Of a stretch of DNA of 31,798 nucleotides, positions 1 to 27,486 are shown piece by piece (within the stretch, counting starts at the first letter, position 1; each line of letters begins with the position of its first letter). Source of the DNA: a virus. The notes below the pieces were generated by a model. The model did no database searches. It was not told where the DNA came from and worked only from the letters and a program-made list of their open reading frames with translations. The position numbers were made by a program, and so were the translations under genes. The stretch covers positions 1 through 31,798 of the IMG/VR virus record IMGVR_UViG_3300032293_002078; one strand, 5' to 3'.

Positions 1-938
1 GTACAAGTGGTAACCTTGGATCTTCAGGAAACGCAGGTACATCAGGATCAAGCCAAACATCAGGATCAAGTGGAACTTCAGGTTCAAACGGTACAAGTGG
101 TAATATAGGCTCCTCAGGATTAAGTCGAACATCAGGTTCAAATGGGTCTTCAGGTTCCTCAGGTATTACTGGTTTATTGGGAGCAAGTGCTTTAAGCGGT
201 TCTTCAGGTTCTTCAGGTTCTTCAGGTTCTTCAGGTTCTTCAGGTACAATGGGGTCAAATGGTATTTCAGGAAATCCAGCTAATTCAGGACTATCAGGAA
301 CCTCCGGTAATGGAGGAACATCAGGATCAAGCGGCACTGCAGGATCAAGTGGAAATGCAGGTAACAGTGGAACTTCAGGAACAAGTGGTGATGAATATTG
401 GGTTATTGCCTCTCATTCTCATGCTTTTACACAAGACTATACTTTAGGTAGTAGTAATTATTATTATGGGGATGATAAATGTGGTTGGTCTGGTTGTGAT
501 TGGGATTTAATAGGAGTAGATTTGATGACAGAATCAATAAAAATTTGTCCAATTAATATGAATGTCTTAATCACAAATCCTTTCAATTTACAAAGTGGAG
601 ATATAATAACACTATGTGGGAATTCAGCAAAAGATAATAAGTCAAATACTGGTTTAGGTTATATTTTAGGTTATTATGATTGTAATAATGGGGTAGATAC
701 AAATGGTAAATTTTTGACTACTGCTTTATTTAGTGGAAGTTCAGCTTATACTACAGCCGAATATGGATGTGAGGAAATTACTAGTCAATACCAATGTTTT
801 AGTGATAGTATTACTCTATCCTCAGCTTTTAATGCTTGTGAGATTCAATTTTTTGTAGGGTTTAACATACAGGATTCAAATTCTGCAAACTCCGCATCAA
901 AAGTAAGTTGGACTCTTAATGTATACCGACCAGGCTAA
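1..938 (+). CDS. Collagen-like tail fibre/adhesin, C-terminal part (5' end outside window)
   Basis: The frame is open from the left edge (first full codon at base 3), so the start lies outside the window; the TTG at 177 is only an internal codon. The first ~130 visible residues are Gly-X-Y triplets, mostly TSG, SSG, SNG and NAG, i.e. a collagen-like stalk very rich in Ser and Thr. Gly is replaced at four triplets (SSQ, LSR, ASA, NPA). A globular domain of about 180 residues follows, beginning near DEYWVIASHSH, with eight cysteines including KCGWSGC, and ending in WTLNVYRPG. Collagen-like stalks with a C-terminal head are typical of phage fibres and surface adhesins; a receptor-binding role is inference. 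Glycosyltransferase genes follow directly, suggesting the Ser/Thr stalk may be glycosylated. The head fold is not recognised. Confidence 0.75.
   Translation, partial: TSGNLGSSGNAGTSGSSQTSGSSGTSGSNGTSGNIGSSGLSRTSGSNGSSGSSGITGLLGASALSGSSGSSGSSGSSGSSGTMGSNGISGNPANSGLSGTSGNGGTSGSSGTAGSSGNAGNSGTSGTSGDEYWVIASHSHAFTQDYTLGSSNYYYGDDKCGWSGCDWDLIGVDLMTESIKICPINMNVLITNPFNLQSGDIITLCGNSAKDNKSNTGLGYILGYYDCNNGVDTNGKFLTTALFSGSSAYTTAEYGCEEITSQYQCFSDSITLSSAFNACEIQFFVGFNIQDSNSANSASKVSWTLNVYRPG
198..242 (+). repeat. Five perfect 9-bp tandem repeats in collagen stalk
   Basis: GGTTCTTCA is repeated five times without a mismatch, encoding Gly-Ser-Ser. The unit is a multiple of three, so slippage would lengthen or shorten the fibre stalk without breaking the frame. 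The surrounding stalk codes for the same triplets with more varied codons, so this block looks recently expanded. Confidence 0.9.
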
Positions 939-987
939 TTATTTAATAAAAAACTATAATATCTTGGTAATTTAAATAATTTTATTT

Positions 988-997
988 ATATTTATAA
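988..997 (+). promoter_or_regulatory. Candidate late promoter element ATATTTATAA
   Basis: ATATTTATAA starts 23 bp before the ATG of the three-domain glycosyltransferase. The same decamer precedes five other genes in the window (see 6059, 8221, 8806, 9847, 12919). Its role as a promoter is inference. Confidence 0.45.
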
Positions 998-1010
998 AAA
1001 ATAAAATGTT

Positions 1011-3671
1011 ATGACAAAATTGTTATTTATTGCTCCTCATTTATCAACAGGTGGACTTCCTCAATATTTAACTAAAAAAATAGAATTACTTAAAGATATA
1101 TATGATATTTATCTTGTAGAATGGGTTGATTGTACTGGAGGGGTTTTAGTAGTTACTAGAAATAAAATAGTAAATTTAATTGATTCTGATAAATTTTTTA
1201 CATTAGGTAATAATAAACATGAATTAATTAACATTATACACCGCATTCAACCGGATATAATACATTTAGAGGAAATACCCGAATTCTTCATGGATGATGA
1301 AATTACCCACCAAATATACACCCAAAATAGAAATTATTCCATTGTAGAAACATCACATGATTCTTCATTTGATACAAATAATAAATTATTTTTCCCTGAT
1401 AAATTTATGTTTGTTTCGGATTGGCAAATTCAACAATATAAAGATTTAGATATTCCTAAAATATTAGTAGAATACCCAATTGAATATACTGAACGTCCAA
1501 ATCGAGAAGAATCATTAACTAAATTAGGATTAGACCCTAATAAAAAACATGTTTTGCATGTTGGTTTATATACTTCTCGTAAAAACCAAGCTGAATTTTT
1601 TGAATATGCTAAACAATTCCCAGATATTGAATTTCACAGTTTAGGAAATAGAGCAGAAAATTTTAAATGGTATTGGGAACCATTAACTAAAGATCAACCC
1701 TTAAATTTAACTTGGTGGAACGAACGCTCAGATGTAGATGCTTTTTATCAATCTATGGATTTATTTTTATTTACTTCTCGGGGACATGATAATGATAAAG
1801 AAACAATGCCTTTAGTTATTCGTGAGGCAATTTCATATCAAATCCCAACTTTAATTTATAACCTCCCAGTTTATTTAGATTATTTTGATAAATTTGAAAC
1901 TATTGATTATTTAAAATTTGATGATTTTAAAACTAATTGTGATAGAATTGCTGAAAAATTAGGTATTAAAGAATCAAATCTAAATGAAGAAATATTTATT
2001 TTATCTACATTCCCTATAAGTGATGCTATAATTGAAACTACATTAAAAACAATAGATTCAATACATGCTCGAGGAACAAAAGTATTAGTAACATCTCATA
2101 TTCCTGTTCCTTTTGAAATCGAATCTAAAGCAGATTATGTTGTTGTTGATAATAACAATATTTTAACAAAACATACTTACTATTGTAATTACTGGTCAGA
2201 CCATCCAGATCATAAAGTCCATATTAATTTAAGAGGAAACGATAATGATGTTTATCATGGACCTAGTGTTCATTCTAATTATGTAAACGGCGCGGCCTTA
2301 GCAAAAAGTTTAGGATATAAAAAATTATTCTTTATTAATTTTGATTACACAATACAATCCCAACATCATATTGATAAAATATCTAAAATATTAGATACTA
2401 AAAAAGCATACTTTGGTAAGTATAAAGCTTCTGAAGGTGATGCTTTGCATACTTATTTTTATGCTTCCACCTCAGATTTCTTTTTAGATCACGTTCGCCA
2501 AGTATTTAATGCTGAGGAATATGAATATTTACGTTTTCAATTAGGAAGTGAAAGTAATGGACTTGAAAATATGTGGTATCATATATTTAAAAGAAGTGCA
2601 GACCAAATTTATTTTGAAGATATTGAAATATTTAATCAAAAAAGTTTAGAAACCTTTAACCACCACGATTTTTCTCAAGTAGAATATTTTACAGTTTTAC
2701 CTACTAATATTCCAAATACGTTTGCTCCTTATATTAGAATTTCTAATAGTAAAGAATCAAGACTTATCCAAATTACAGTACATGATAAAGATAAAAATGA
2801 AGTATTTTTTGATGAATTAAATGTAGAAAGTAAAATAGATTATTATAAAGTTCTCCCATACGAAGAAGGAATGGAAGTAGAATTTAAAATTAGTAATTAT
2901 CATAAAATTCTTAAAATATCTACTATTCAAGTAAAAAATCTTGAATTTAATGGTAATTTAGAAATAAAAAACTTAAATACAAAGATTAAACTAATGCATT
3001 TAGTTACTGAACCTGATTCTAATCTAAAGGAAATTAGATCAGTAGAAAATATTAAAGATTTTTGCAATAAAACAGGTATCAAATACGAACAAAGAGTAAA
3101 TAAAATATGGACAGAATTACCTCCTAGTGATACTTGTGCTCGACCCCAAGATGTTCAAGATAAGCCTGGATATTATAAATTAGCACCGGGTCATTATGGT
3201 TGTTATTTAGCTCATACAAATGCTATTTTAGCAGATGACAATAAAGATTATGATTATATATTAATATTTGAAGGAGATGTAATTATAGATTCTGATTATC
3301 AAGAATTATATGATTCTTTAATTCGCTTTAGTAAAATATCTAAAGAACAAAACCAAGATATAATTGGATTTGGTAATCCATTTAATAATCGTAATTTAAA
3401 TGGACCTAAAATTGAAGACATTTATACAAATGTAACTCCCTTTATCCCTGCTCAGTCTTATTTAATTAATAATGAAAAAATAAATTATATTCAAGATAAA
3501 ATAAAAACAACTTTGTGGGATGCTTTTGATATGTGGGTATGCAATATTGCTCAATTAAAAGTAGGTACTGCTGAAAAAATATACACAAAACACCTCCCGG
3601 GGTTTAGTATTATTGAACAAGAATTTAAAGGAATTGATGAAAATAGTCCCGAAATATACGCTACCGAATGA
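1011..3671 (+). CDS. Three-domain glycosyltransferase (GT-B + GT-A-like + GT25)
   Basis: The 886-residue protein carries three probable sugar-transfer domains. Residues ~1-320 look like a GT4-type GT-B fold, with N-terminal LLFIAPHLSTGG, then HVGLYTSRKNQ and the late LVIREAISYQIPTLIY segment. Residues ~325-555 form a separate alpha/beta domain (ILSTFPISD..., FFINFDYTI) that resembles a GT-A enzyme, less surely. A beta-rich linker (~575-655) precedes a GT25 domain (~658-886) recognised by GCYLAHTNAI near 730 and the acidic FEGDVII near 753, equivalent to the EDD metal site of LPS glycosyltransferases. It would act in the host cytoplasm on nucleotide sugars. Its stop overlaps the next gene by ATGA, implying coupled translation. 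Acceptors could be phage fibre protein or host surface glycan; sugar specificity cannot be read from the sequence. Confidence 0.75.
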   Translation: MTKLLFIAPHLSTGGLPQYLTKKIELLKDIYDIYLVEWVDCTGGVLVVTRNKIVNLIDSDKFFTLGNNKHELINIIHRIQPDIIHLEEIPEFFMDDEITHQIYTQNRNYSIVETSHDSSFDTNNKLFFPDKFMFVSDWQIQQYKDLDIPKILVEYPIEYTERPNREESLTKLGLDPNKKHVLHVGLYTSRKNQAEFFEYAKQFPDIEFHSLGNRAENFKWYWEPLTKDQPLNLTWWNERSDVDAFYQSMDLFLFTSRGHDNDKETMPLVIREAISYQIPTLIYNLPVYLDYFDKFETIDYLKFDDFKTNCDRIAEKLGIKESNLNEEIFILSTFPISDAIIETTLKTIDSIHARGTKVLVTSHIPVPFEIESKADYVVVDNNNILTKHTYYCNYWSDHPDHKVHINLRGNDNDVYHGPSVHSNYVNGAALAKSLGYKKLFFINFDYTIQSQHHIDKISKILDTKKAYFGKYKASEGDALHTYFYASTSDFFLDHVRQVFNAEEYEYLRFQLGSESNGLENMWYHIFKRSADQIYFEDIEIFNQKSLETFNHHDFSQVEYFTVLPTNIPNTFAPYIRISNSKESRLIQITVHDKDKNEVFFDELNVESKIDYYKVLPYEEGMEVEFKISNYHKILKISTIQVKNLEFNGNLEIKNLNTKIKLMHLVTEPDSNLKEIRSVENIKDFCNKTGIKYEQRVNKIWTELPPSDTCARPQDVQDKPGYYKLAPGHYGCYLAHTNAILADDNKDYDYILIFEGDVIIDSDYQELYDSLIRFSKISKEQNQDIIGFGNPFNNRNLNGPKIEDIYTNVTPFIPAQSYLINNEKINYIQDKIKTTLWDAFDMWVCNIAQLKVGTAEKIYTKHLPGFSIIEQEFKGIDENSPEIYATE

Positions 3672-4630
3672 AAATATGCCAAATAGACCCAGGATGTGGT
3701 ATTCCTATTCCCCCTCCAGCTTGGGGTGCTATTGAAAAAATAGTATGGGAATTTACTAATAATTTAGATAAATTAGGACATGAAGTTGATATTAAAATGT
3801 CTGGAGTTATTGAACCAAATGAATATGATATAGTTCATTGTCATGTTGCTAATTTAGCCCTAGAACTATCAAAAAGAAATATTCCTTATATTTATCAATT
3901 ACATGATCATCACGCATATCATTATGGTAAAGATTCTCACGTATATAAAGAAAATTTACAAGCAATTGAAGGTTCACTTATATCTTTAATGCCTGCTAGA
4001 TTTTTAGTTGATTATTTTGATCATCCAAAATGTGAATATTTTTCACATGGTGTGAATATAGATGATTTTTATCCCATTGAAAAAGAAACACCAGTAGAAC
4101 CAAAACTATTAATGATAGCCAATAATGGTCTAGCAGGTAATTCTACATTTGATAGAAAAGGATTTACATATGGTTTAGGTTTAGCAATGCTAAATAATCT
4201 TGAAATAACAATAGCAGGTCCTTCAGACAATAAAAGCTTTTTTAATGCTCATTTATGGATGTTAAATTATCCTAAACTAAACTTGGTATTTGATACTCCT
4301 AATAGTAAATTATTAGAATTGTATCATAAACATGATATTTTTATTCACCCTACAATGTTAGAAGCTGGTCATCCTAATTTAACAATGGTTGAATCTGCAG
4401 CCGCTGGTTTACCTATTATTGCGGATTGGGAAAAAGAAACTGATTTTCATGGTGCTTGGAGATCTCCTCGTAATATATTTGAAATGGATAAAGGTTTAAA
4501 AGATATTATAGATAATTGGGCTTTATATAGAACAAAATGTTTAGAAACAGCTAAAGAATTATCATGGTATAATCGTTCAAAAGAATTAATTAAAATATAT
4601 GAAAGAAGTTTTAATCAAAGAATACAATAA
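3668..4630 (+). CDS. GT4-type glycosyltransferase
   Basis: This 320-residue protein has a GT-B layout. The N-terminal MKICQIDPGCGIPIPPPAWGA followed by a helix (IEKIVWEFTNNLDKLGHEV) is the usual loop after strand 1 in GT4 enzymes. DIVHCHVAN and YQLHDHHAY follow, then SHGVNIDDFYP at the domain hinge. The C-terminal half carries HPTMLEAGHPNLTMVESAAAG, a version of the glutamate-pair motif that binds the nucleotide sugar. It starts inside the stop codon of the preceding glycosyltransferase (ATGA) and overlaps the next gene by 32 bp, so all three are probably one translationally coupled unit. At 320 residues it is on the short side for the family but both lobes seem present. Donor and acceptor are unknown. 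Confidence 0.8.
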   Translation: MKICQIDPGCGIPIPPPAWGAIEKIVWEFTNNLDKLGHEVDIKMSGVIEPNEYDIVHCHVANLALELSKRNIPYIYQLHDHHAYHYGKDSHVYKENLQAIEGSLISLMPARFLVDYFDHPKCEYFSHGVNIDDFYPIEKETPVEPKLLMIANNGLAGNSTFDRKGFTYGLGLAMLNNLEITIAGPSDNKSFFNAHLWMLNYPKLNLVFDTPNSKLLELYHKHDIFIHPTMLEAGHPNLTMVESAAAGLPIIADWEKETDFHGAWRSPRNIFEMDKGLKDIIDNWALYRTKCLETAKELSWYNRSKELIKIYERSFNQRIQ

Positions 4631-5801
4631 TATTACACAACTTAATTTACCTTATAAAAAAAATTTAAATAAATTTGTATTTAATTTTGTAAAAGGAGCA
4701 TTTTTAGAAATAATAGGTTCGGATCCAAAAAAATATTTAATTAAATTTATTAATAATGTAAATAATGAAAGTTTATATGAAACTGAAATTAGCAACAATA
4801 TGTGGACTAAACCTAGTATTGAATATTTTATTAATTGGAGAATTGAGGTTTATGATAAAGAAAATAATGAGTTAGTATTTGAACATAATTATAATGCTAA
4901 AAATAAAAGAGTTTATATTCATTTTGAATCATCCGCAATTGGTGATACATTAGCTTGGTTTCCTGCTATAGAGGAATTTAGAAATACCCACCAATGCCAG
5001 GTGATTTGTTCTACATTTCATAATGAATGGTTTGAAAAAGAATATCCAAACTTAGAATTTGTTAATCCCGGAACTGAAGTAAATGATTTGTATGCTATGT
5101 ATACTGTTGGGTGGTTTTATAATGAAGATAAAACAGTAACAAATTCTAAAATCCCAATTGATTTTAAACAACATCCCTTAGGAGAAACATCAACCTCTAT
5201 TTTAGGATTAAAATATAGAGAAATAAAACCAAAAGTAACAATACCTAATAAATCTAGACAAATTGAAGATAAATATGTTATTATAGCTCCTCACGCTTCG
5301 GCACATGCTAAATATTGGAATTATAAAGGAGGATGGCAATCAATAATTGACTATTTAAATGAACAAGATTATAAAGTAGTAATGATTACTCATGAAAAAC
5401 TAGGAGATAAATGGCATGATTCTAAGTTAGGAGGTACATTAAAAAATGTAATTGATAAAACCGGAAATTATCCTATTGAAGATAGAATGTTAGATTTAAA
5501 ATATGCTGATGCTTTTATAGGTGTTGGAAGTGGTCTTTCTTGGTTATCATGGTCACTAGGAACCCCTACAGTACTAATATCAGGATTTAGTTTACCTTAC
5601 AGTGAATTTACAGATTGTGAACGAGTTTTTAATTATGATACTAATGTATGTACAGGATGTTTTAACAAACACTGGCTAAACCCAGGTGATTGGGAATGGT
5701 GCCCAGAATATAAAAATACATATAAACAATTTGAATGTACAAAAACAATTAATCCTTCTCGAGTAATTAAATCTCTTAATAAAGTTCTTAATATTTATTA
5801 A
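4599..5801 (+). CDS. GT9/BAHT-like O-heptosyltransferase homologue
   Basis: The 400-residue protein begins with a beta-rich domain (~1-100), then a GT-B transferase starting VYIHFESSAIGDTLAWFPAIEEF, typical of GT9 heptosyltransferases and of the bacterial autotransporter heptosyltransferase family (TibC/Aah). The second lobe contains YVIIAPHASAHAKYW and DAFIGVGSGLSWLSWSLGTPTVLISGF, the usual nucleotide-heptose binding end. Near the C-terminus Cys351, Cys354, Cys368 and Cys380 form a CX2C-X13-C-X11-C cluster, matching the metal (iron) finger known in BAHT enzymes. Known members transfer heptose to Ser in repetitive autotransporter adhesins, so the Ser-rich collagen stalk upstream is an attractive substrate, by inference. 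The chosen ATG overlaps the previous gene by 32 bp; there is no later good start before the N-terminal domain. Confidence 0.75.
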   Translation: MKEVLIKEYNNITQLNLPYKKNLNKFVFNFVKGAFLEIIGSDPKKYLIKFINNVNNESLYETEISNNMWTKPSIEYFINWRIEVYDKENNELVFEHNYNAKNKRVYIHFESSAIGDTLAWFPAIEEFRNTHQCQVICSTFHNEWFEKEYPNLEFVNPGTEVNDLYAMYTVGWFYNEDKTVTNSKIPIDFKQHPLGETSTSILGLKYREIKPKVTIPNKSRQIEDKYVIIAPHASAHAKYWNYKGGWQSIIDYLNEQDYKVVMITHEKLGDKWHDSKLGGTLKNVIDKTGNYPIEDRMLDLKYADAFIGVGSGLSWLSWSLGTPTVLISGFSLPYSEFTDCERVFNYDTNVCTGCFNKHWLNPGDWEWCPEYKNTYKQFECTKTINPSRVIKSLNKVLNIY

Positions 5802-5802
5802 T

Positions 5803-6057
5803 ATGGATCAAATAATTCTAACTCCCGAAGAATTATCAGTTTTAAAAGAATTAGATATTAAAAAAAATAGTTTATCTTTAAATTTTAAAGAATTAGAAAT
5901 AGAATATCAATCAAAAAAACAATATCTCCAATTTCAATTAAAAATAATAAATACCAGTTGTGAAAAAATGGGTATTTTATTACATAAAAAATATGGAGAT
6001 GGAATAATAGATCCCGATACAGGCATATTTAAAAAATCTAATTTTGAAAATCCTTAA
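5803..6057 (+). CDS. Small coiled-coil protein, unknown function
   Basis: An 84-residue protein with no family I recognise. It opens with ILTPEELSVLKELDIKKN, and residues ~5-60 have heptad-like hydrophobic spacing, so a helical hairpin or coiled coil is likely. A short glycine-rich end (KYGDGIIDPDTGIFKK) follows. It starts one base after the stop of the heptosyltransferase-like gene and lies just before the tail sheath, so it could be an accessory of glycosylation, of fibre assembly or of the tail; nothing in the sequence decides among these. Confidence 0.6.
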   Translation: MDQIILTPEELSVLKELDIKKNSLSLNFKELEIEYQSKKQYLQFQLKIINTSCEKMGILLHKKYGDGIIDPDTGIFKKSNFENP

Positions 6058-6098: not shown

Positions 6099-8204
6099 AT
6101 GCCCGAAACACTAATATCCCCCGGAGTACTAGCATCAGAAAATGATGGTTCTTTTGTATCAACTCAACCCGTTGTTGCTGGAGCAGCTATTATTGGACCA
6201 ACCGTAAAAGGTCCTGTAAATGTTCCTACAATGGTTAGTTCTTATAGTGATTATCAAAATAAATTTGGTACTACTTTTTTAAGTGCTAGTCAAGTTTATA
6301 CTTATTTTACCTCAGTAACTGCTTTTAACTATTTTAATAATGGTGGTAAATCATTATTAGTATCAAGAGTAGTAACTGGTAGTTTTTTACCTGCAGTTTC
6401 ATGTGACAACAATGTTAGTGGAGGTCTAGGTATAGCTAGTGGTGTAGGATTTACAACTGCTTCCGCAACATTAGATGTAACTACCCTTTCAGCTAGCTAT
6501 GCAGCTGTTGGTTCTAGTTCATTTAATTTAAATGGTATTACTATAAATTACACAGGTTCTGCGCAAGTAAACTCAGCAACTCAAGTTAACATTAATGCTG
6601 CATCCTTTACAACCCCAGCTTCATTTGCCGCAGGTACATTCCCCGCAATTAATGTTAGTTCATCAGTAACTGCTTATACTTCTTCGTGGTCAAATATTAC
6701 AGCCTCAAATACAACAATTACTCTTAATCTATTTTCTATAACTTCTGGATCTTCAAATAATAGCCTTTATTATACTTCAGGAAGTACTACTACTTTCTTT
6801 ACAGGAGGTACAAATACACCAGCTTTTGTTTTAAAAACAATATCTGAGGGTGCTATTATGAATAGCTCTAGTTCATTAGATTCTGCAGGTGCCTTACTTT
6901 CAGGATCAGTAGATAATATTAGATATCAAATCCAAAATAACAATACATCCTCAGGAACTTTTAGTTTATTAATCCGTAGAGGTGATGATAACACAGATAC
7001 CCCAGTTGTATTAGAAACTTGGACCAATTTATCAATGGACCCAACAGCTCCAAATTATATATCTAAAGTAATTGGTAATCAAAGAAAACAATATAGTTCT
7101 GCAGATAATCAAATTGAAGTACTTGGAGATTATTCAAACAATTCAAGATATGTTTATGTATCTAGTGTGTTAACACCCACTCCATTATTTTTTGATAATA
7201 ACGGTATTGCAAAATCTCAATACACAAGTTCAATTCCAATAAATTCACAAGGATCTTTTAAAAATGCAACAGGTGATTTATTTATAGGTGCAGCTAGTTA
7301 TTACGATCAAATTACTACAGCAACAACAGCTCCTCAAGGTATAACAGCAAGTAGTTATAATAATATGATTAACTTATTAGCTAATGCTGATGATTATAGA
7401 TTTAATGTATTATTAACTCCTGGATTATCATCCGCAACTTCTAATTTAGGTGCTTCACAAATAACAACAATAATTAATAATACTCAACTTAGAGGAGATA
7501 ATATTTATATAGCTGATTTAGTTCCTTTTGGTTCTAGTATAACTCAAGCAATTGCACAAGCAAGTACTAAAAATACTTCATATGCTGCTGCTTATTGGCC
7601 TTGGGTTCAAACAGTTGACCCAGATTCAGCACAATTAGTTTGGCTCCCAGCATCTTGTTTAGTAGCAGGAGCTTATGCTTTCAACGATAGTGTCTCAGAA
7701 CCTTGGTTTGCCCCAGCCGGTATTACTAGAGGTGGATTAAGTACAGTAGTTAGAGCTGAGAAAAAATTGTCACAAACAGATCGTGATAATTTATATGCAA
7801 ATAAAGTAAATCCAATAGCTACATTCCCGGGAACAGGAGTTGTAGTATATGGCCAAAAAACATTACAATCAAAAGCATCTGCTCTTGATCGTGTAAATGT
7901 TCGTCGTTTATTAATTGCTCTTAAATCTTATATTTCTCAAGTAGCTCAAAACTTAGTATTTGAACAAAATTCAATAGCTACAAGAAATGCATTCCTAGCT
8001 GCAGTAAATCCATATTTAGAAACAGTACAACAAAAACAAGGTTTGTATGCTTTTAAAGTAATAATGGATGATAGCAATAACACAGCGGATGTAATCGATA
8101 GAAATCAAATGGTAGGCCAGATTTATATACAACCAACAAAAACAGCAGAATTTATTTATCTAGATTTCAATATCTTACCAACAGGAGCAACATTCCCTGG
8201 ATAA
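6099..8204 (+). CDS. Tail sheath protein (gp18-like)
   Basis: This 701-residue protein forms the contractile outer tail cylinder. The N-terminus (SPGVLASENDGS, then VVAGAAIIGPTVKGPVNVP and SYSDYQNKFG) is the characteristic start of T4-type sheath proteins. The C-terminal part has VNVRRLLIALKSYISQVAQNLVFEQN, the conserved helix, and ends with IYLDFNILPTGATFPG, the strand that inter-links sheath subunits. Residues ~100-240 are Ser/Thr/Gly-rich beta sequence and probably form a surface domain that varies among phages. T4 gp18 has 659 residues, so this is slightly longer. The tail tube gene follows after 49 bp, the usual order. It has its own upstream ATATTTATAA element, fitting a strongly expressed late gene. 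Confidence 0.95.
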   Translation: MPETLISPGVLASENDGSFVSTQPVVAGAAIIGPTVKGPVNVPTMVSSYSDYQNKFGTTFLSASQVYTYFTSVTAFNYFNNGGKSLLVSRVVTGSFLPAVSCDNNVSGGLGIASGVGFTTASATLDVTTLSASYAAVGSSSFNLNGITINYTGSAQVNSATQVNINAASFTTPASFAAGTFPAINVSSSVTAYTSSWSNITASNTTITLNLFSITSGSSNNSLYYTSGSTTTFFTGGTNTPAFVLKTISEGAIMNSSSSLDSAGALLSGSVDNIRYQIQNNNTSSGTFSLLIRRGDDNTDTPVVLETWTNLSMDPTAPNYISKVIGNQRKQYSSADNQIEVLGDYSNNSRYVYVSSVLTPTPLFFDNNGIAKSQYTSSIPINSQGSFKNATGDLFIGAASYYDQITTATTAPQGITASSYNNMINLLANADDYRFNVLLTPGLSSATSNLGASQITTIINNTQLRGDNIYIADLVPFGSSITQAIAQASTKNTSYAAAYWPWVQTVDPDSAQLVWLPASCLVAGAYAFNDSVSEPWFAPAGITRGGLSTVVRAEKKLSQTDRDNLYANKVNPIATFPGTGVVVYGQKTLQSKASALDRVNVRRLLIALKSYISQVAQNLVFEQNSIATRNAFLAAVNPYLETVQQKQGLYAFKVIMDDSNNTADVIDRNQMVGQIYIQPTKTAEFIYLDFNILPTGATFPG

Positions 8205-20381: not shown

Positions 20382-21215
20382 ATGGATTTAAATGAAATGA
20401 AAAACAGACTGTCTGCAATGCAGTCAAAACAATCCGGAAAAGGTGGCGGAGAAAAAAAATCTATCTTTTGGAAACCCTCAGTAGGTAAACAAATTATTCG
20501 TGTTGTACCTTCTAAATACAACAAAACCATCCCATTTACAGAAATGTATTTCCATTATGGTATTGGAAAAAATACTATGGTATCTCCTATTAATTGGGGT
20601 GAAAAAGATCCTATTGTAGAATTTTCTAAACAATTACGTACAACTAGTGATAAGGAAAATTGGCGTTTGGCTAAGAAATTAGATCCAAAAATGCGTATTT
20701 TTGCTCCTGTTATTGTTCGTGGTGAAGAAACAGAGGGAATTAAGTTATGGCAATTTGGTAAGGAATTATATATGGATTTCTTAAATCTTGCAGATAATGA
20801 AGATGTTGGTGATTTTACGGATGTAATGATTGGTCGTGATATTACATTAACTACTGTAGGTCCTGAAGTAACAGGTACAAGTTATAATAAAACAACTATC
20901 ATGCCTAAAGTTAAAGAAACTCCATTAGCAGGTGATAAAACAACAATTGAATCATTGTTAGAAAATCAACCTAATCCTATGGATGTATTTAAAAAATATT
21001 CATATGATGAAATGAAATTAGCACTTCAAGAATGGTTAACTCCGGAAGATGAATATGAAGAAGGTTCTATTATTGATGATGAAAAGGAAGAAAAAGCTCC
21101 TTTAATATCTCCTGAAAAAGCATACTCAATTAAAACACCATCTGCTGTTAAGGTAAGCAAAGCAGATAAATTTGATTCATTATTTGAAGAAGAATCAGAC
21201 GATTTACCATTTTAA
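20382..21215 (+). CDS. Single-stranded DNA-binding protein (gp32-like)
   Basis: A 277-residue T4-gp32-type protein coating single-stranded DNA at the fork. The N-terminus (MDLNEMKNRLSAMQSK, then basic GKGGGEKK) corresponds to the cooperativity arm. KSIFWKPSVGKQIIRVVPSKYN and PFTEMYFHYGIGKN begin the OB core, and FGKELYMDFLNLADNEDVGDFTDVMIGRDITLT is a typical central segment. Unlike T4 gp32, there are no cysteines in the core, so the zinc site is missing. Residues from ~225 are an acidic tail ending EESDDLPF, the same type of tip that bacterial SSB uses to recruit partners, whereas T4 gp32 ends differently. It heads the recombination-replication block and is followed 14 bp later by UvsX. Confidence 0.88.
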   Translation: MDLNEMKNRLSAMQSKQSGKGGGEKKSIFWKPSVGKQIIRVVPSKYNKTIPFTEMYFHYGIGKNTMVSPINWGEKDPIVEFSKQLRTTSDKENWRLAKKLDPKMRIFAPVIVRGEETEGIKLWQFGKELYMDFLNLADNEDVGDFTDVMIGRDITLTTVGPEVTGTSYNKTTIMPKVKETPLAGDKTTIESLLENQPNPMDVFKKYSYDEMKLALQEWLTPEDEYEEGSIIDDEKEEKAPLISPEKAYSIKTPSAVKVSKADKFDSLFEEESDDLPF

Positions 21216-21229
21216 TATAAAAAACAAAC

Positions 21230-22312
21230 ATGGCAAAAAGTAAAAAAAGCGAATCGCTAACGGCTGCTCTCTCCTCAGAACTTAGATCTAAATTTGATTT
21301 AACTAAGTTCAAAGAAAAGAAAATGCTAAATTCAAATGTAAAATTTAAAGATCAAAAGTGGATTCCTTTAAGCCCGGCATTCCAGGATGTAACTTCATTA
21401 CCTGGAATTCCAATGGGTCATATTGTACTTCTTAGAGGACATAGTGATACTGGAAAAACAACAGCAATGATTGAGGCCGCAGTTTCCGCTCAAAAAATAG
21501 GTATTTTACCTGTATTTATTATAACTGAAATGAAATGGAACTGGGAACATGCTAGACAAATGGGCCTCCAGGTTAATGAAATTGTAGATGAATCAACAGG
21601 TGAAATTTTAAATTATGAAGGTAATTTTATATATGTTGATCGTGAAATATTACACACTATAGAAGATGTAGCTGCATTTGTTTTAGATTTATTAGATGAA
21701 CAGAAAAAAGGTAATTTACCTTATGATTTATTATTCCTATGGGATTCTATCGGATCAATTCCTTGTGATCTCTCAGTTCGTTCAAATAAAAATAATAATG
21801 AATGGAATGCAGGAGCGATGTCAACACAATTTGGAAATAGTGTAAATCAAAAAATTACATTATCTCGTAAAGAATCATCTCCTTATACTAATACCTTAGT
21901 ATGTGTTAATAAAGTATGGACAGCAAAAGCAGAGGTACCAATGGGTCAACCAAAATTAATGAATAAAGGAGGATTTGCAATGTGGTTTGATGCTACTTTT
22001 GTAGTAACATTTGGTAATATTTCAAATGCAGGTACCTCTAAAATTAAAGCAATTAAAGATGGTAAACAAGTTGAATTTGCTAAACGTACAAATATTCAAA
22101 TTGATAAAAATCACATCAATGGTATCCAGTCAAGAGGAAAAATCATTATGACACCCCATGGATTTATTAATGATACAGACAAAGAACTTAAATCCTATAA
22201 AGACGCACATACAGCCGAATGGGTAAGTATACTTGGGGGTACAGATTTTGACATTTTTGAAGAACAAGATCAATATGAACCCGTAAACATCTTTGCCCAA
22301 GAACCAGATTAA
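21230..22312 (+). CDS. uvsX: UvsX-like recombinase (RecA family)
   Basis: This 360-residue ATPase promotes strand exchange and recombination-dependent replication. Walker A is GHSDTGKTT (70-78). EMKWNWEHARQMGLQV follows, then the Walker B strand DLLFLWDSIGS and DNA-binding loop region NNEWNAGAMSTQFGNSVNQKI, and MNKGGFAMWFDATFVVTF. T4 UvsX has 391 residues, so length is normal. It would load on gp32-coated DNA with help from a mediator (UvsY), which I cannot identify in this window. It ends one base before the 5' nuclease gene ATG, so the two are surely co-transcribed. Confidence 0.92.
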   Translation: MAKSKKSESLTAALSSELRSKFDLTKFKEKKMLNSNVKFKDQKWIPLSPAFQDVTSLPGIPMGHIVLLRGHSDTGKTTAMIEAAVSAQKIGILPVFIITEMKWNWEHARQMGLQVNEIVDESTGEILNYEGNFIYVDREILHTIEDVAAFVLDLLDEQKKGNLPYDLLFLWDSIGSIPCDLSVRSNKNNNEWNAGAMSTQFGNSVNQKITLSRKESSPYTNTLVCVNKVWTAKAEVPMGQPKLMNKGGFAMWFDATFVVTFGNISNAGTSKIKAIKDGKQVEFAKRTNIQIDKNHINGIQSRGKIIMTPHGFINDTDKELKSYKDAHTAEWVSILGGTDFDIFEEQDQYEPVNIFAQEPD

Positions 22313-22313
22313 T

Positions 22314-23354
22314 ATGAAAAAAAAAGAATTACTTAAACTCCTGGACAATTTAGTTGAGGAGCAGGAAACAGTCTCCTCAAATAGATACGATAGAGTACTT
22401 TTAATTGATGGTTTAAATTTATTTTTTAGAAATTTTGCTATGATGAATATCATCAATTCTCAAGGAACACACGTAGGGGGTTTAGGTGGTTTTCTTCGTT
22501 CCTTAGGATCTTTAATTAAACAAATTCAACCTACTGCTGTATTTGTAGTATTTGATGGAATAGGTTCCTCTACAAATAGAAAAAACTTACTCCCCGAGTA
22601 CAAATCAGGACGTAATCTAACTCGAATCACAAATTGGGAAGTATTTGAAAATTTAGAAGATGAAGATGATGCTAAAATTAATCAAATTGTACGAATTGCT
22701 CATTATTTAAAATGTTTACCTGTTAAAACAGTAGCAATTGATAAAGCTGAAGCAGATGATATTATTGCATATTACAGTGATATTCTCCCAAAAACATATA
22801 ATTCAAAATGTTTTATAGTTTCCTCAGATAAAGACTTTATACAATTAGTTAACGATAATGTTATAGTATATAGACCAATAGAAAAAGAATATTATACTAA
22901 AGATACAGTTAAAGAAAAATTTGGAGTATTAGCTGATAATTTTATTCTATATAAAATGTTACTTGGAGATAATTCTGATAAAATCCCAGGAGTAAAAGGA
23001 TTAGGAGATAAAGGATTACTTAAAAAATTCCCAGAACTAGCTGAAAGGGTATTAACATTAGATGAGATCTTTGAAATTGCGGGACAAAAACATAAAGAGC
23101 ATGTAATATATGCTCGTATTGCTTTTGAACGTGACAGACTAGAACAAAATTACAAAATTATGAATTTAAAAAAACCTTTATTAGATGACAATGATAAAGA
23201 ATTTTTAGAAGCATTTGCAGAAGAAGATAATTTAGCTTTGAATACTGGAGCTTTTTTACGATTTTACCAAGATGATGGTTTAGGTCATTTAATCAAAAAT
23301 GTGGATTTTTGGATCAATGATACATTTAAAGTACTAAATAGTTTTAATAAATAA
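22314..23354 (+). CDS. 5'-3' exonuclease / RNase H (FEN family)
   Basis: The preferred ATG at 22314 gives 346 residues; an in-frame TTG at 22293 lies inside uvsX and is unlikely. The acidic metal sites of the FEN family are visible in order: VLLIDGLNLFFRNF (Asp32), VFVVFDGIG, then KAEADDIIAYY, FIVSSDKDFIQLV, and the helix-hairpin-helix entry LLGDNSDKIPGVKGLGDKG. In T4 the equivalent is RNase H, which removes lagging-strand RNA primers. Because the family-A polymerase in this phage lacks its own 5' nuclease domain, this separate protein would supply that activity. It sits between uvsX and the helicase. Confidence 0.9.
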   Translation: MKKKELLKLLDNLVEEQETVSSNRYDRVLLIDGLNLFFRNFAMMNIINSQGTHVGGLGGFLRSLGSLIKQIQPTAVFVVFDGIGSSTNRKNLLPEYKSGRNLTRITNWEVFENLEDEDDAKINQIVRIAHYLKCLPVKTVAIDKAEADDIIAYYSDILPKTYNSKCFIVSSDKDFIQLVNDNVIVYRPIEKEYYTKDTVKEKFGVLADNFILYKMLLGDNSDKIPGVKGLGDKGLLKKFPELAERVLTLDEIFEIAGQKHKEHVIYARIAFERDRLEQNYKIMNLKKPLLDDNDKEFLEAFAEEDNLALNTGAFLRFYQDDGLGHLIKNVDFWINDTFKVLNSFNK

Positions 23355-23389
23355 GTTATATTACATTCACAATTTAAAAAATAAAAGTT

Positions 23390-24760
23390 TTGACACTATC
23401 GAATCTTTCCCAATACGGAATTAATTTTCAAATTAAAGTATTATCTTCATTACTAACTCATAAGGAATTTTTATTAAATATCCATGATGTTATTAGTGAA
23501 GATTATTTTGATAATCAAGCACACCAATGGATTATTAAAGAAATTTTAAAATATTATCAAAAATACCATACTACTCCTTCAATGGATGTGTTAAAAGTAG
23601 AGTTAAAAAAAATTGATAATGAAATACTTCAAGTATCAATAAAAGAACAACTCCGTGAAGCTTATAAAGCATCAGATGAAGATCTTAAATATGTTGAAGA
23701 AGAATTTTCAAATTTTTGTAAAAACCAACAACTTAAAAGAGCGTTATTAAACAGCGTTAATTTTCTTAACGTGGGAGATTATGATACAATCCGTTCATTA
23801 ATTGATAACGCATTAAAATCGGGACAAGACAAAAATGTAGGGCACGAATATAACAAAGAAATTGAATCTCGTTATAGAGAAGACCATAGAGTTGTAGTAC
23901 CTTGTCCTTGGGAGCCTTTTAATACCTTATTACAAGGAGGATTAGGTAATGGTGACTTTGGATTAATTTTTGGTAATCCTGGAGGTGGTAAATCTTGGAC
24001 CCTAATTGCTCTAGGTGGATATGCTGTTAAAATGGGATATAATGTTTTACATTATACTCTTGAATTAGGAGAAGATTATGTAGGACGCCGTTATGACTCC
24101 TTCTTCACAAACATCCCAGTAAATAAAATTACTGAAAAAAAACATAGACCAAAAGTTGAAGAGGTTATTGCAGAATTACAAGGTCAATTAATTATTAAAG
24201 AATATTCGCCAGGTAAGGCATCAATGTCTACAGTTGAATCACATATTAAAAAATGTATTGATCAAGATTTCAAACCAGATTTAGTCATTATTGACTATGT
24301 AGATCTTCTTCGTTCAAGAAAAACAAATCGTGAACGAAAAGATGAAATAGATGATATTTATATTAGCACAAAAGCCCTTGCACGAGACCTAAATATACCC
24401 GTATGGTCTGTTTCTCAAGTAAATAGAGCAGGTGCAAAAGATGATATTATTGAAGGTGATAAAGCCGCAGGATCATATGATAAAATGATGGTCACTGATG
24501 TTGCAATATCTTTATCAAGAAAACGTCAAGATAAAGTTAATGGAACCGGAAGATTCCATATTATGAAAAATAGATATGGAATGGACGGAATGAGTTTTAA
24601 TGTTAAAGCAGATACATCAACAGGCCATTTTGAAGTTTCAGAAAGAGCAGAAGATGATGATGAAGCTACTTCTCCACAAACTGCACTACCTGTTTTCAAT
24701 ACTATTGATTATATGGATAAACAAGAGTTACGTAATAAGTTTTTCGAATTAAACACCTAA
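23390..24760 (+). CDS. Replicative helicase (gp41/DnaB-like), TTG start
   Basis: A 456-residue hexameric helicase. The N-terminal ~150 residues are a helical DnaB-type domain. The RecA-like motor has Walker A GNPGGGKSWT (195-204), LHYTLELGEDYVGRRYDSFF, Walker B LVIIDYVDLL, and the sensor WSVSQVNRAG, with a later SRKRQDKVNGTGRFHIMKNRYG. T4 gp41 has 475 residues. The start is TTG, preceded by AAATAAAAGTT exactly as other genes here have before ATG, which supports it. No later ATG precedes the conserved N-terminus. A primase is not seen in the window. The nrdB gene follows after 8 bp. Confidence 0.9.
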   Translation: MTLSNLSQYGINFQIKVLSSLLTHKEFLLNIHDVISEDYFDNQAHQWIIKEILKYYQKYHTTPSMDVLKVELKKIDNEILQVSIKEQLREAYKASDEDLKYVEEEFSNFCKNQQLKRALLNSVNFLNVGDYDTIRSLIDNALKSGQDKNVGHEYNKEIESRYREDHRVVVPCPWEPFNTLLQGGLGNGDFGLIFGNPGGGKSWTLIALGGYAVKMGYNVLHYTLELGEDYVGRRYDSFFTNIPVNKITEKKHRPKVEEVIAELQGQLIIKEYSPGKASMSTVESHIKKCIDQDFKPDLVIIDYVDLLRSRKTNRERKDEIDDIYISTKALARDLNIPVWSVSQVNRAGAKDDIIEGDKAAGSYDKMMVTDVAISLSRKRQDKVNGTGRFHIMKNRYGMDGMSFNVKADTSTGHFEVSERAEDDDEATSPQTALPVFNTIDYMDKQELRNKFFELNT

Positions 24761-24768
24761 TTAAAAAT

Positions 24769-25749
24769 ATGAAAAATATAACAAAACCACGATTGGTATA
24801 TAAACCTTTTGAATATCAAGAAGCTGCAGATTATTGGCTTAAACAACAACAAGCTCATTGGTTACACACAGAAGTACCAATGATGTCGGATTTAACAGAT
24901 TGGAATTTTAATTTAAATAAAACTGAAAAAAATATTATTGGTTCTATTTTAAAGGGATTTGCTCAAACTGAAACTGTTGTAAATGATTATTGGTCAGGTC
25001 TAGTAACAAAATGGTTTCGTAAACCTGAAATTATTATGATGGCTACTACTTTTGGTGCCTTTGAAACAATTCATGCTGAAGCTTATTCTTTATTAAATGA
25101 AACTTTAGGTCTTGAAAATTTTGATGAATTTTTAGAAGATGAAGCTACAATGGCTAAAATTCAAAATTTAATGAATATAAGAGATAGTTTTCAAGGAGAA
25201 ATAGATTGGCACGAAGTAGCAAAATCACTAGCTATATTCTCAGCATTTACAGAAGGTGTTAATTTATTTTCTTCTTTTGCAATTTTATTAAGTTTTAAAA
25301 TGCGTAATAAACTTAAAGGGGTAGGACAAATAGTAGAATGGTCTATTCGAGATGAATCTCTTCATTCTGAAGCTGGATGTTGGTTATTTAGAACTTTAAT
25401 TCAAGAAAATCCAAAACTCAAAACTAAAGAATTAGAAGCAGCAATTAATGAAGCCGCTTTACTTTCCCTTAAACTAGAAATTGATTTTATTAATAAAGTT
25501 TATGAGCTTGGAGATTTAGAAGGTTGTTCAAAATATGATCTAGAACATTTTATTAAAAATAGAGTAAATACTAAATTAGGTGATTTAGGATATAAACCAA
25601 TCATATCAAATATAGATGTAACTGCGGTTGAAAGAATGAAATGGTTTGATCACCTCTCAGCAGGAAAACAACATTCTGATTTCTTTTCTACAAGAGTAAC
25701 TAATTATAGTAAAGGTCATATAATGTTTGATGAAAGTATTTTCGATTAA
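24769..25749 (+). CDS. nrdB: Class I ribonucleotide reductase, small (beta) subunit
   Basis: The 326-residue protein carries the diiron/dimanganese radical site. Metal ligands line up by spacing with E. coli NrdB: Glu68, Glu99, His102, Glu162, Glu196 and His199. Tyr106 lies in the radical tyrosine position (ExxHxxxY). The first ligand is Glu instead of the Asp84 of E. coli, a feature known from class Ic. The C-terminus ends KGHIMFDESIFD, the tail that docks with NrdA. It lies 8 bp after the helicase and 24 bp before nrdA. It makes deoxynucleotides for phage DNA synthesis. No N-terminal ATP-cone is present, so overall-activity control on this subunit is absent. Confidence 0.93.
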   Translation: MKNITKPRLVYKPFEYQEAADYWLKQQQAHWLHTEVPMMSDLTDWNFNLNKTEKNIIGSILKGFAQTETVVNDYWSGLVTKWFRKPEIIMMATTFGAFETIHAEAYSLLNETLGLENFDEFLEDEATMAKIQNLMNIRDSFQGEIDWHEVAKSLAIFSAFTEGVNLFSSFAILLSFKMRNKLKGVGQIVEWSIRDESLHSEAGCWLFRTLIQENPKLKTKELEAAINEAALLSLKLEIDFINKVYELGDLEGCSKYDLEHFIKNRVNTKLGDLGYKPIISNIDVTAVERMKWFDHLSAGKQHSDFFSTRVTNYSKGHIMFDESIFD

Positions 25750-25773
25750 AAAATAAAATTATAAAATTAAATT

Positions 25774-27486
25774 ATGGATAATAACAACTTATCAATAGAT
25801 TACACACAATGGGAACGTGGAAAAGATTATCCTGAATATTTTGATGAGGTTGCCTTAAGTACTATTTCAAAAGGATATTTACTTCCCGGAGAAACACCAA
25901 AAAAAGCATACAGACGAGTAGCACATTCTGTAGCTATGCGTTTAAATAAACCTGAATTAGAAAACAAATTTTTTAAATATATTTGGAATGGATGGATTGG
26001 ATTGGCTAGCCCTGTACTCTCAAACACAGGAACGGACCGCGGATTACCGATTAGTTGCTTTGGCATCGATACTCCAGATTCAATCAGAGGTATTGGCCTT
26101 ACAAACGCAGAACTTATGCGACTTACCTCTTATGGAGGTGGAGTTGGAATTTCCCTCTCAAGAATTAGAGGAAGAGGATCAAATATTACCGGAAATGGAA
26201 AATCCGAAGGAATAGTCCCTTGGGCTAAAATTTATGATTCCACTATTATAGCAACTAATCAAGGATCAGTACGAAGAGGAGCAGCATCTGTAAATTTAGA
26301 TATTAATCATAAAGATATTAATGAATTTCTTCAAATCCGTAGACCTAAGGGTGATCCTAACAGACAATGTCTTAATCTTCATCAATGTATAGTTGTTGAT
26401 GATGCATTTATGAAGCGTTTAAATGATCGTGATAGTGAAGCTATGTCTTTGTGGTTAGAAATTCTTAAATCTCGTGTAGAAACAGGAGAACCATATATTA
26501 TGTTTAAGGATAATGTTAATAAAGATAATCCATTAGCATATAGAATGAATAATCTTGATGTTAGTATGACTAATATTTGTACTGAAATTACATTACATAC
26601 AGATGAAGAACATTCATTTATTTGTTGTTTAAGTTCTTTAAATTTAGCTAAATATGATGAATGGAAAAACACAGATTTAGTTGAAACTGCTGTATATTTT
26701 TTAGATGGGGTAATGGAAGAATTTATTGTTAAAACAAATGGTAAAGACTCAATGATTCGTTCTCACAGACATGCTAAAAAAGGACGTGCACTTGGTTTAG
26801 GTGTAATGGGTTGGCATACCTTTTTACAACAAAAGAATTTACCTTTTAATTCAATTGCATCAACAGCCTGGACACATACTATTTTTAGTGATATTAAAAT
26901 TAAAGCAGAAGCAGCATCTCGTCAACTAGCTGTAGAATATGGTGAACCTCTGTGGTGTAAAAACACAGGTATGAGAAATACTCATTTATTAGCCATAGCT
27001 CCAACAGTATCCAATTCACGTATTAATGCTTGTTCCGCTGGTATTGAACCCCAACCAGCAAATGTTTATGTGTTTAATGGAGCTAAAGGAACATTTATTG
27101 TTAAAAATCAAGAATTAGAAAAATTATTAGAATCTAAAGGAAAAAACCAAAATAAATATTGGGACCAAATTTTAGCAGATAACGGATCAGTTCAAAATTT
27201 ATCACATGATGTTTTAAATGAAGAAGAAAAAGAAGTATTTTTAACATTTCCCGAAATTAACCAATTATCTTTAGTTCAACAAGCCGCAGCCCGTCAACGT
27301 TATATTGATCAAACCCAATCCTTAAATTTAGCTTTTGATCCAACAGATTCTCCAAGATGGATTAATCAAGTCCATATAGAAAGTTGGAAATTAGGAATAA
27401 AAACCCTATACTATTTAAGAACCGACTCTGTAATTAAAGGAGATTTAGGCTCTCGTACATCTACTTGTTTAAGTTGTGATGGATAG
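25774..27486 (+). CDS. nrdA: Class I ribonucleotide reductase, large (alpha) subunit
   Basis: The 570-residue catalytic subunit keeps the key residues: Cys95 (PISCFG) and Cys284 (ICCLSSLNL) as the redox pair, Asn267-Cys269-Glu271 (TNICTEI) as the active-site radical group, Tyr546-Tyr547 (TLYYLRT) for radical transfer from NrdB, and C-terminal Cys565 and Cys568 (CLSC) that receive electrons from thioredoxin or glutaredoxin. APTVSNSRINACSAGIEPQPANVY is the usual family block. E. coli NrdA has 761 residues; here the N-terminal ATP-cone is missing, so dATP feedback inhibition is probably lost, which would suit a phage. It forms an operon with nrdB. Confidence 0.95.
   Translation: MDNNNLSIDYTQWERGKDYPEYFDEVALSTISKGYLLPGETPKKAYRRVAHSVAMRLNKPELENKFFKYIWNGWIGLASPVLSNTGTDRGLPISCFGIDTPDSIRGIGLTNAELMRLTSYGGGVGISLSRIRGRGSNITGNGKSEGIVPWAKIYDSTIIATNQGSVRRGAASVNLDINHKDINEFLQIRRPKGDPNRQCLNLHQCIVVDDAFMKRLNDRDSEAMSLWLEILKSRVETGEPYIMFKDNVNKDNPLAYRMNNLDVSMTNICTEITLHTDEEHSFICCLSSLNLAKYDEWKNTDLVETAVYFLDGVMEEFIVKTNGKDSMIRSHRHAKKGRALGLGVMGWHTFLQQKNLPFNSIASTAWTHTIFSDIKIKAEAASRQLAVEYGEPLWCKNTGMRNTHLLAIAPTVSNSRINACSAGIEPQPANVYVFNGAKGTFIVKNQELEKLLESKGKNQNKYWDQILADNGSVQNLSHDVLNEEEKEVFLTFPEINQLSLVQQAAARQRYIDQTQSLNLAFDPTDSPRWINQVHIESWKLGIKTLYYLRTDSVIKGDLGSRTSTCLSCDG

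Follow-up and report, generated by a model that had tools for sequence, protein, structure and literature searches.

The virus record IMGVR_UViG_3300032293_002078 was analysed over a stretch of 31,798 bases, which is referred to in the following as the window. Positions 1 to 5,801 carry the end of a collagen-like fibre gene and three glycosyltransferase genes, here called GT1, GT2 and BAHT (bacterial autotransporter heptosyltransferase). We propose that these genes form a virion self-glycosylation cassette, in which the enzymes modify the collagen stalk of the phage's own fibre, starting with a heptose on Ser, and we give this reading a probability of roughly 0.8. The main argument is that enzyme content tracks stalk composition across viral genomes, which is best explained by the cassette enzymes acting on the stalk.

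In the case of the fibre (3..938, on the + strand like the other cassette and tail genes given below), the reading frame is open at the window edge. Only its 3' end is therefore visible (311 amino acids), and the N-terminus together with most of the stalk lies outside. A Pfam Collagen match (E=2e-14) and the triplet composition identify a virus-encoded collagen-like protein, in which the stalk spans about 9-395 and a C-terminal tip about 396-935. By one rule the visible stalk holds 39 triplets, by another 43, and Ser or Thr occupy 0.66 of the X and Y positions. A preliminary description of this DNA had called the stalk almost entirely Gly-Ser/Thr-Ser; the richness in Ser and Thr stands, but the wording was too strong, as GSS and GTS make up 51% of the 39 triplets. 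The same description had placed three overlapping transferase genes directly after the fibre, and this is what is seen: GT1 (1011..3671, 886 amino acids) overlaps GT2 (3668..4630, 320 amino acids) by 4 bases, and GT2 overlaps BAHT (4599..5801, 400 amino acids) by 32 bases.

The third gene had been described as resembling autotransporter heptosyltransferases, and the comparison with TibC, an autotransporter heptosyltransferase of known structure, bears this out (E=1.9e-57, residues 45-396). Structure prediction, which had been suggested as a check, led to the same enzyme. The AlphaFold2 model (mean predicted local distance difference test score, pLDDT, 89; predicted template modelling score, pTM, 0.85) has the TibC fold, i.e. 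an N-terminal beta-barrel and a GT-B catalytic domain. TibC was matched by Foldseek with template modelling (TM) scores of 0.81/0.83 (E=4.9e-34) and by VIA-align with a Z of 38.9 and a root-mean-square deviation of 2.6 over 359 aligned residues (23-400). The corresponding Z was 19.9 for a Veillonella GT9 protein and 17.2-17.8 for the lipopolysaccharide (LPS) heptosyltransferases WaaF and WaaC. At the residue level, the equivalents of TibC Asp110, Lys230 and Trp305 are each present in all 45 viral sequences aligned, as are the four Cys of the iron finger (TibC Cys339/342/358/370). Arg286 is found in 38 of the 45, the Thr226 position is Thr or Ser in every one, and Pro300 is replaced by Gly in 44. 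In the window, the Asp110 equivalent is Asp116 (codon 4944..4946) and the iron-finger module comprises Cys351/354/368/380 (5649..5738). The roles of these residues in TibC, including Asp110 as candidate catalytic base, are taken from the available part of PMC4358343. Altogether, sequence likeness and model make a strong case that the protein is a TibC-type O-heptosyltransferase, the putative initiator on stalk Ser.

Regarding the acceptor, the linkage was approached from the collagen side, so that neither enzyme nor lineage entered the selection. IMG/VR was scanned for DNA encoding eight Gly-Ser/Thr-Ser/Thr triplets, and 106 of 120 loci with this pattern proved to be Ser/Thr collagens of at least 15 triplets (14 dropped); a Gly-Pro pattern gave 117 loci, of which 22 were dropped and 95 left. 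A BAHT profile was then run on 50 records of each set, mostly the longest contigs where listed (6 controls were unlisted). Ser/Thr fractions were 0.54-0.99 and Pro fractions 0-0.16 in the first set, compared with Pro 0.09-0.56 and Ser/Thr 0-0.45 in the controls. BAHT was present in 23/50 Ser/Thr-collagen records and in 0/50 Gly-Pro records (Fisher p=8.7e-9), and among records of at least 60 kb in 14/20 and 0/15, respectively. For 15 of these 23 records, the 12-19 kb fetched around BAHT included the collagen, in either orientation and with varied gene orders and fusions; in the other eight it was located elsewhere in the same record. Thus, the collagen stalk as acceptor, for which the preliminary description had offered proximity and repetitiveness, gains support from a linkage that did not start from the window. 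Moreover, over the 10,703 triplets of 22 selected Ser/Thr loci, the Y position is Ser at 0.62 and Thr at 0.08. This fits a Ser-specific enzyme and is in line with TibC, for which the sites found are Ser, not Thr (PMC4358343).

These results bear on a different reading, in which the transferases alter host LPS or capsule during infection, e.g. against superinfection, so that adjacency to the fibre would merely mark a host-recognition region. Phage seroconversion (gtr) cassettes place the flippase GtrA beside a bactoprenol-linked glucosyltransferase. Such a cassette was considered and rejected, because a Pfam scan of GT1, GT2 and BAHT returned GT4, GT25 and GT9 families, otherwise only matches with E of at least 0.1, and no flippase family. 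The LPS reading does have precedents: for pelagimyophages, the glycosyltransferases of the host-recognition cluster have been interpreted in this way (PMC7029224), and BAHT is structurally related to WaaF and WaaC. These two are, however, far more distant than TibC by Z (17.2-17.8 against 38.9), and the TibC alignment starts at residue 23, thus including the N-terminal strands. Above all, the link is to the amino acid composition of the fibre, which modification of LPS does not predict. We therefore regard this reading as quite unlikely.

When the search was started from the enzyme, a protein scan of IMG/VR with BAHT gave 59 relatives and a profile scan at least 585 stretches. Some 30 of the 59 loci, near-duplicates included, show the order collagen frame, GT1, GT2, BAHT; this co-occurrence in related phages, proposed earlier as a check, indicates that the arrangement is not due to chance. 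In most window-lineage loci with upstream DNA, a Ser/Thr collagen open reading frame (ORF) precedes the three transferases. The exceptions are L028, with a Pro/Gln collagen, L035 and L037, with the collagen downstream on the opposite strand, and L055-L059, with none. More distantly, in Microcystis phage Mel-JY01 (PP395634) a Ser/Thr collagen (203 triplets, fraction 0.80) lies one gene upstream of a GT4-BAHT fusion, and in the 735-kb phage LR756501 a Ser/Thr collagen adjoins GT1 and a GT2-BAHT fusion; both phages have distant BAHTs (40-42% identical). A collagen was in view at 61 non-redundant BAHT loci, with 48 stalks of the Ser/Thr type and 13 of the Pro type; for the 38 loci not picked by collagen or oxygenase, the figures were 33 and 5.

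Some phage BAHTs are fused to GT4, FkbM or PIG-L domains, and FkbM methyltransferase domains were found in the relatives L028, L306 and L307. The PIG-L deacetylase-BAHT fusion group (L055:5162-8887, L349, L351; L055 and L351 also with GT4) shows no collagen nearby, but in its two larger records a Ser/Thr collagen lies at a distance of tens of kb. In a species-genome collection, 7 of 63 BAHT loci had a nearby Ser/Thr collagen of at least 15 triplets, two of them (L627, L629) as doubtful short ORFs. All seven lie on contigs of metagenome-assembled genomes (MAGs), two with a tail-tube gene; the BAHT-collagen pairing thus appears to be mainly, not only, a phage trait. The contig L624 (17 kb, binned as Winogradskyella) combines a Ser/Thr collagen with a BAHT (58% identical) and the tube gene, a hint at Bacteroidota hosts that is weak because the contig comes from a MAG.

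The cassette could also glycosylate another virion protein, such as tail sheath, baseplate or the fibre tip, instead of the stalk. The position of the sheath gene downstream of the cassette in the window lineage fits this idea, as do the varying sheath ORFs of about 507-864 amino acids among lineage loci. On the other hand, at 25 of the 61 BAHT loci that show a collagen, no tube relative is in view, and L061, L304, L307 and L316 show neither a sheath nor a tube match nearby. Loci of the same lineage were also sought by means of the tail tube. Of those obtained, 46 lack BAHT; 19 of their records were searched whole, and one was left out for carrying a 27-residue BAHT end. A collagen was present in two of the remaining 18 same-tube records, in one of the Pro type together with gene a (introduced below) and in the other Gln-rich, and none is of the Ser/Thr type. 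L397, a BAHT-less locus of 6.8 kb, has 13 Ser/Thr triplets. As to the tip, it varies among relatives and the transferases stay: of the lineage loci compared, L003 (48%) and L004 (49%) were the only ones with a match to the tip of the window, and a further match was seen in L309 (31%). Overall, modification of another virion protein appears just as improbable as that of host LPS.

Further evidence on the stalk as substrate came from the loci with Pro-type collagens. Some close relatives, of which L028 was the first, have a Pro/Gln collagen that is separated from GT1 by a GT2/methyltransferase gene and by genes a and b. Gene a belongs to DUF6445 (PF20043) and has no oxygenase family match of its own, and gene b belongs to the 2-oxoglutarate (2OG)-Fe(II) oxygenase family PF13640. 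An H-x-D...H set, which from knowledge of the family we take to be the iron triad, is invariant in eight gene b sequences. In the 61 BAHT loci, 47 Ser/Thr stalks come with neither gene and one comes with b, whereas all 13 Pro-type stalks come with b (5 also with a). Eight of these 13 had been fetched through genes a or b; when they are excluded, gene b is present in 5/5 Pro-type and 1/48 Ser/Thr loci (p=2e-6). Ser/Thr fractions of X/Y were 0.04-0.18 in eleven Pro-type loci, 0.64 in L470 and 0.42 in L495. An advance prediction, that loci with gene b and an unseen collagen would prove to be of the Pro type, was assessable in two of seven named loci, L617 and L507, and came true for each of them (Pro 0.26-0.31). 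On the BAHT tree, stalk type changes six times, and closely related loci that differ in the stalk differ in the oxygenase as well (L028 and L425 compared to L415; L436 and L439 compared to L026 and L052). The preliminary description had named transferases without any Ser/Thr collagen-like fibre in related phages as a finding that would speak against it. This finding was made in part, as shown by the 13 Pro-type loci and by LR756504, in which no collagen was matched, but a collagen stalk is still present in all 13. Consequently, 'collagen stalk' describes the acceptor better than 'Ser/Thr stalk'.

The assignment of the oxygenase as a prolyl hydroxylase was examined separately and is true only in part. 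Fifty non-identical collagen loci selected by gene b comprised 41 with Pro of at least 0.08, 7 mixed and 2 of the Ser/Thr type, and 6 of 20 loci selected by gene a were of the Pro type; outside BAHT loci, the tie between oxygenase and Pro is thus looser. PF13640 and DUF6445 genes adjoin phage collagens in many IMG/VR contigs (L028:3803-5047, L425, L436, L439, L506 and others), and DUF6445 also occurs beside Pro-poor collagens.

Could BAHT and Ser/Thr collagen simply co-occur by shared descent in one phage group, with no functional tie? The same-lineage tail tube is seen in 36 of the 61 BAHT loci with collagen in view, and the stalk/oxygenase switch offers only 4-6 independent pairs, both of which would agree with such an origin. 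Against this, the pair is kept with the distant BAHTs of Mel-JY01 and LR756501 and in other gene orders, fusions and orientations, the collagen scan made no use of lineage, and stalk type and oxygenase change jointly even between close relatives. We consider shared descent marginally the least probable of the three alternatives.

Several observations weigh against self-glycosylation of the stalk. The cassette was assigned from genes, and the stalk glycan is a prediction. BAHT was missing from 27 of the 50 Ser/Thr-collagen records, including 6 of the 20 of at least 60 kb. When the collagen loci of six such BAHT-less records were inspected, one had GT11 and GT25 genes within 7 kb. GT4 (PF00534), which was searched for in these 27 and in the 50 controls only, was found in 3 and 6 of them, respectively, so that GT4 is no stand-in for BAHT in the BAHT-less records. 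Conversely, among 121 non-redundant BAHT loci, a collagen is not in view at 60, of which 49 have less than 7 kb upstream. The other 11 have at least 7 kb: the collagen pattern occurs elsewhere in the record for L303, L310, L311, L312 and L319, the L450 record has a Ser/Thr collagen, the L427 record has a 4,026-residue ORF rich in Gly, Ser and Thr in which the triplets are broken, 30 triplets are counted in L047 when another rule is used, and L056, L059 and L063 have none. Likewise, L055-L059 show no collagen within their records of 8-22 kb, and the 636-kb phage LR756504.1 (the L063 record) has a BAHT and neither a Pfam Collagen nor a Ser/Thr-pattern match. The 13 Pro-type stalks among 61 loci mean that richness in Ser/Thr is not strictly required. 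The oxygenase switches with the stalk in 4/4 independent pairs on supported branches, but with only four pairs the sign test gives p=0.125. As for the enzyme, the residues Phe265/Val266, which form the hydrophobic tip of the beta-hairpin thumb in TibC, appear not to be conserved (Asp or Asn at 265, mostly Lys, Asp or Glu at 266, 8 of 45 sequences gapped, in a loop whose alignment is unsure). Since TibC needs these residues for its dodecamer, the viral oligomer may differ. Finally, a match to the ADP-heptose nucleotidyltransferase-like model TIGR02199 was seen in 5 of 32 BAHT records, three of the five being near-copies and none above the curated cut-off; the donor ADP-heptose would thus probably come from the host.

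Of the two transferases preceding BAHT, GT1 had been described as one glycosyltransferase; it is a transferase, although not a single one, as Pfam (Glycos_transf_1 E=1.6e-10, Glyco_transf_25 E=1.6e-4) and the AlphaFold2 model (mean pLDDT 79, pTM 0.46) resolve a chain of modules. Domain 1 is of the GT4/GT-B type (residues 1-321; 1011..1973) and aligns to 4xsu by VIA-align with a Z of 18.9 and a root-mean-square deviation of 3.8 over 290 residues. It is followed by a probable GT-A-like domain 2, proposed from the secondary structure of the model (residues ~327-550; 1989..2660), a beta sandwich seen in the same model (residues ~558-652; 2682..2966) and a GT25-like domain 3 (residues ~659-880; 2985..3650), in which PF01755 matches residues 716-807 with 22.0 bits, slightly below the Pfam cut-off of 24. 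The top Foldseek matches for the whole of GT1 were human COLGALT1 (E=1.1e-10). This match was not relied on, because the TM scores are only 0.19/0.29 and COLGALT1 is absent from the VIA-align matches, which span residues 1-321 only. GT2 is a GT4-type glycosyltransferase by Pfam matches slightly below the cut-offs; it is 57-99% identical where found among relatives of the window and is fused to BAHT in several phages.

Put together, the following course of events is the most likely. In the G-X-Y repeats of its very long collagen-like fibre, the phage would use Ser, and also Thr, in place of Pro. In the cytoplasm, the TibC-type enzyme would transfer heptose from host ADP-heptose onto stalk Ser, and GT2 together with the transferase domains of GT1 would probably lengthen it to a short oligosaccharide, perhaps methylated by FkbM-type domains in some relatives. 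By coating a stalk almost without proline, the sugars most likely help it to form, make it stiffer or shield it. In the Pro-type relatives, the cassette gains a protein of the 2OG-Fe(II) oxygenase family, which would hydroxylate the stalk. Regarding the benefit, helix stabilisation is another possible one beside the masking, host binding and protease protection named in the preliminary description, and by analogy with the Riftia collagen considered below we favour stability of a nearly Pro-free helix, presumably a trimer, over masking. A further-reaching version is that sugar replaces proline: TibC-type O-glycans would enable a nearly Pro-free Gly-Ser/Thr collagen to adopt and keep the triple-helical form, in fibres of up to about 1 micrometre, and Pro-using relatives would add 2OG-Fe(II) hydroxylases instead, giving two exchangeable stabilising chemistries set by fibre-adjacent genes. 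This we put forward tentatively, as an idea rather more likely to fail than to hold.

The individual parts have known counterparts. Like TibC and AAH (PMC4358343, in the part available), the phage enzyme has the fold, the catalytic-base Asp, the sugar-binding Lys and Trp and the four-Cys iron finger of the family, and its likely substrate is a repetitive Ser-rich neighbour. The differences are that this neighbour is a collagen stalk and not an autotransporter passenger, that some phage versions are fused to GT4, FkbM or PIG-L, that the thumb residues appear to differ and that Pro300 is mostly Gly. A BAHT-autotransporter adhesin system is defined by a neighbouring autotransporter adhesin, and the neighbour found here is a collagen-like fibre. 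From giant viruses, mimivirus L230 is described as a collagen lysyl hydroxylase and a glucosyltransferase related to GLT25D1 (PMC9614988, as excerpted). The likeness lies in virus-encoded enzymes for the virus's own collagen-like proteins, in a GT1 domain that may be of the GT25 type and in the oxygenase-family genes of Pro-type loci. In contrast to L230, the cassette belongs to a phage of bacteria, the proposed initiation is of the TibC type on Ser, and the oxygenase-family proteins (PF13640; DUF6445) are separate, small and found only in relatives, outside the window cassette. A Pfam scan of the four cassette proteins found no lysyl hydroxylase domain. In mycobacteriophages, virion glycosylation affects the C-termini of both capsid and tail-tube subunits (Freeman et al. 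2023, as cited in PMC12619734). These are phage virion proteins with glycans, as is predicted here; the window differs in having a collagen stalk and a TibC-type enzyme. A functional parallel, not a relative, is the cuticle collagen of Riftia, an animal protein whose stability is ascribed to Thr-linked glycosylation, not 4-hydroxyproline, at stabilising positions (cited in PMC11766948, as excerpted).

Phage virion glycans, TibC-type transfer to adhesins and modification of giant-virus collagens are thus each known separately, and their combination in phages appears to be new: among the open-licence PMC papers listed in searches aimed at it, in several cases the best 15-25 of 23-384, BAHT, phage and collagen were not found joined. 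The excerpts of PMC12619734 and PMC7029224 interpret glycosyltransferases near phage fibres mainly as acting on host LPS or DNA. That fibre composition goes with the enzyme offers a testable substrate for a class of such fibre-adjacent enzymes. If the reading is correct, collagen glycosylation would have a counterpart in bacteriophages, the TibC family would reach beyond autotransporters to a triple-helical substrate, and very large collagens that are glycosylated and nearly free of proline would become available. Because stalk residue and oxygenase gene switch in step, the stabilisation of non-animal collagens also becomes directly testable.

As to fibre size, the longest complete frame, found in a relative, has 4,661 amino acids and 1,286 triplets. 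The rise of a triple helix is 0.286 nm per residue, and this fibre would reach about 1.1 micrometres if every triplet formed triple helix. The uncultured phage LR756501.1 (735 kb, the L062 record) holds 1,273 overlapping matches to a five-triplet Ser/Thr-collagen pattern on one strand; this huge genome thus contains collagen genes of very large size. The giant fibres G007, G019 and L618 of different phages have a common N-terminal stretch, MAQVRFLDQVPVGVYN, perhaps the virion anchor, and a Peptidase_S74 chaperone domain forms the end of the G007 fibre (L017). In Mel-JY01, the open collagen frame (L061:1-3052) is overlaid by hypothetical genes, mostly on the opposite strand, and the GT4-BAHT fusion (L061:4750-8430) is annotated as methyltransferase FkbM, with no FkbM domain found there by Pfam.

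Downstream of the cassette, the window continues with an 84-residue ORF (5803..6057) present in nearer relatives, the tail sheath protein (6099..8204; Phage_sheath_1 E=1.9e-15, phrog_23 E=3.1e-66) and tube and baseplate genes identified by Pfam and PHROG matches. Further on, positions 20382-27486 hold genes for a single-stranded DNA-binding protein, a UvsX-like recombinase, an exonuclease, a DnaB-like helicase and the small and large subunits of ribonucleotide reductase. A 414-residue protein at 27508-28752 has weak EF-hand matches below the Pfam cut-offs.

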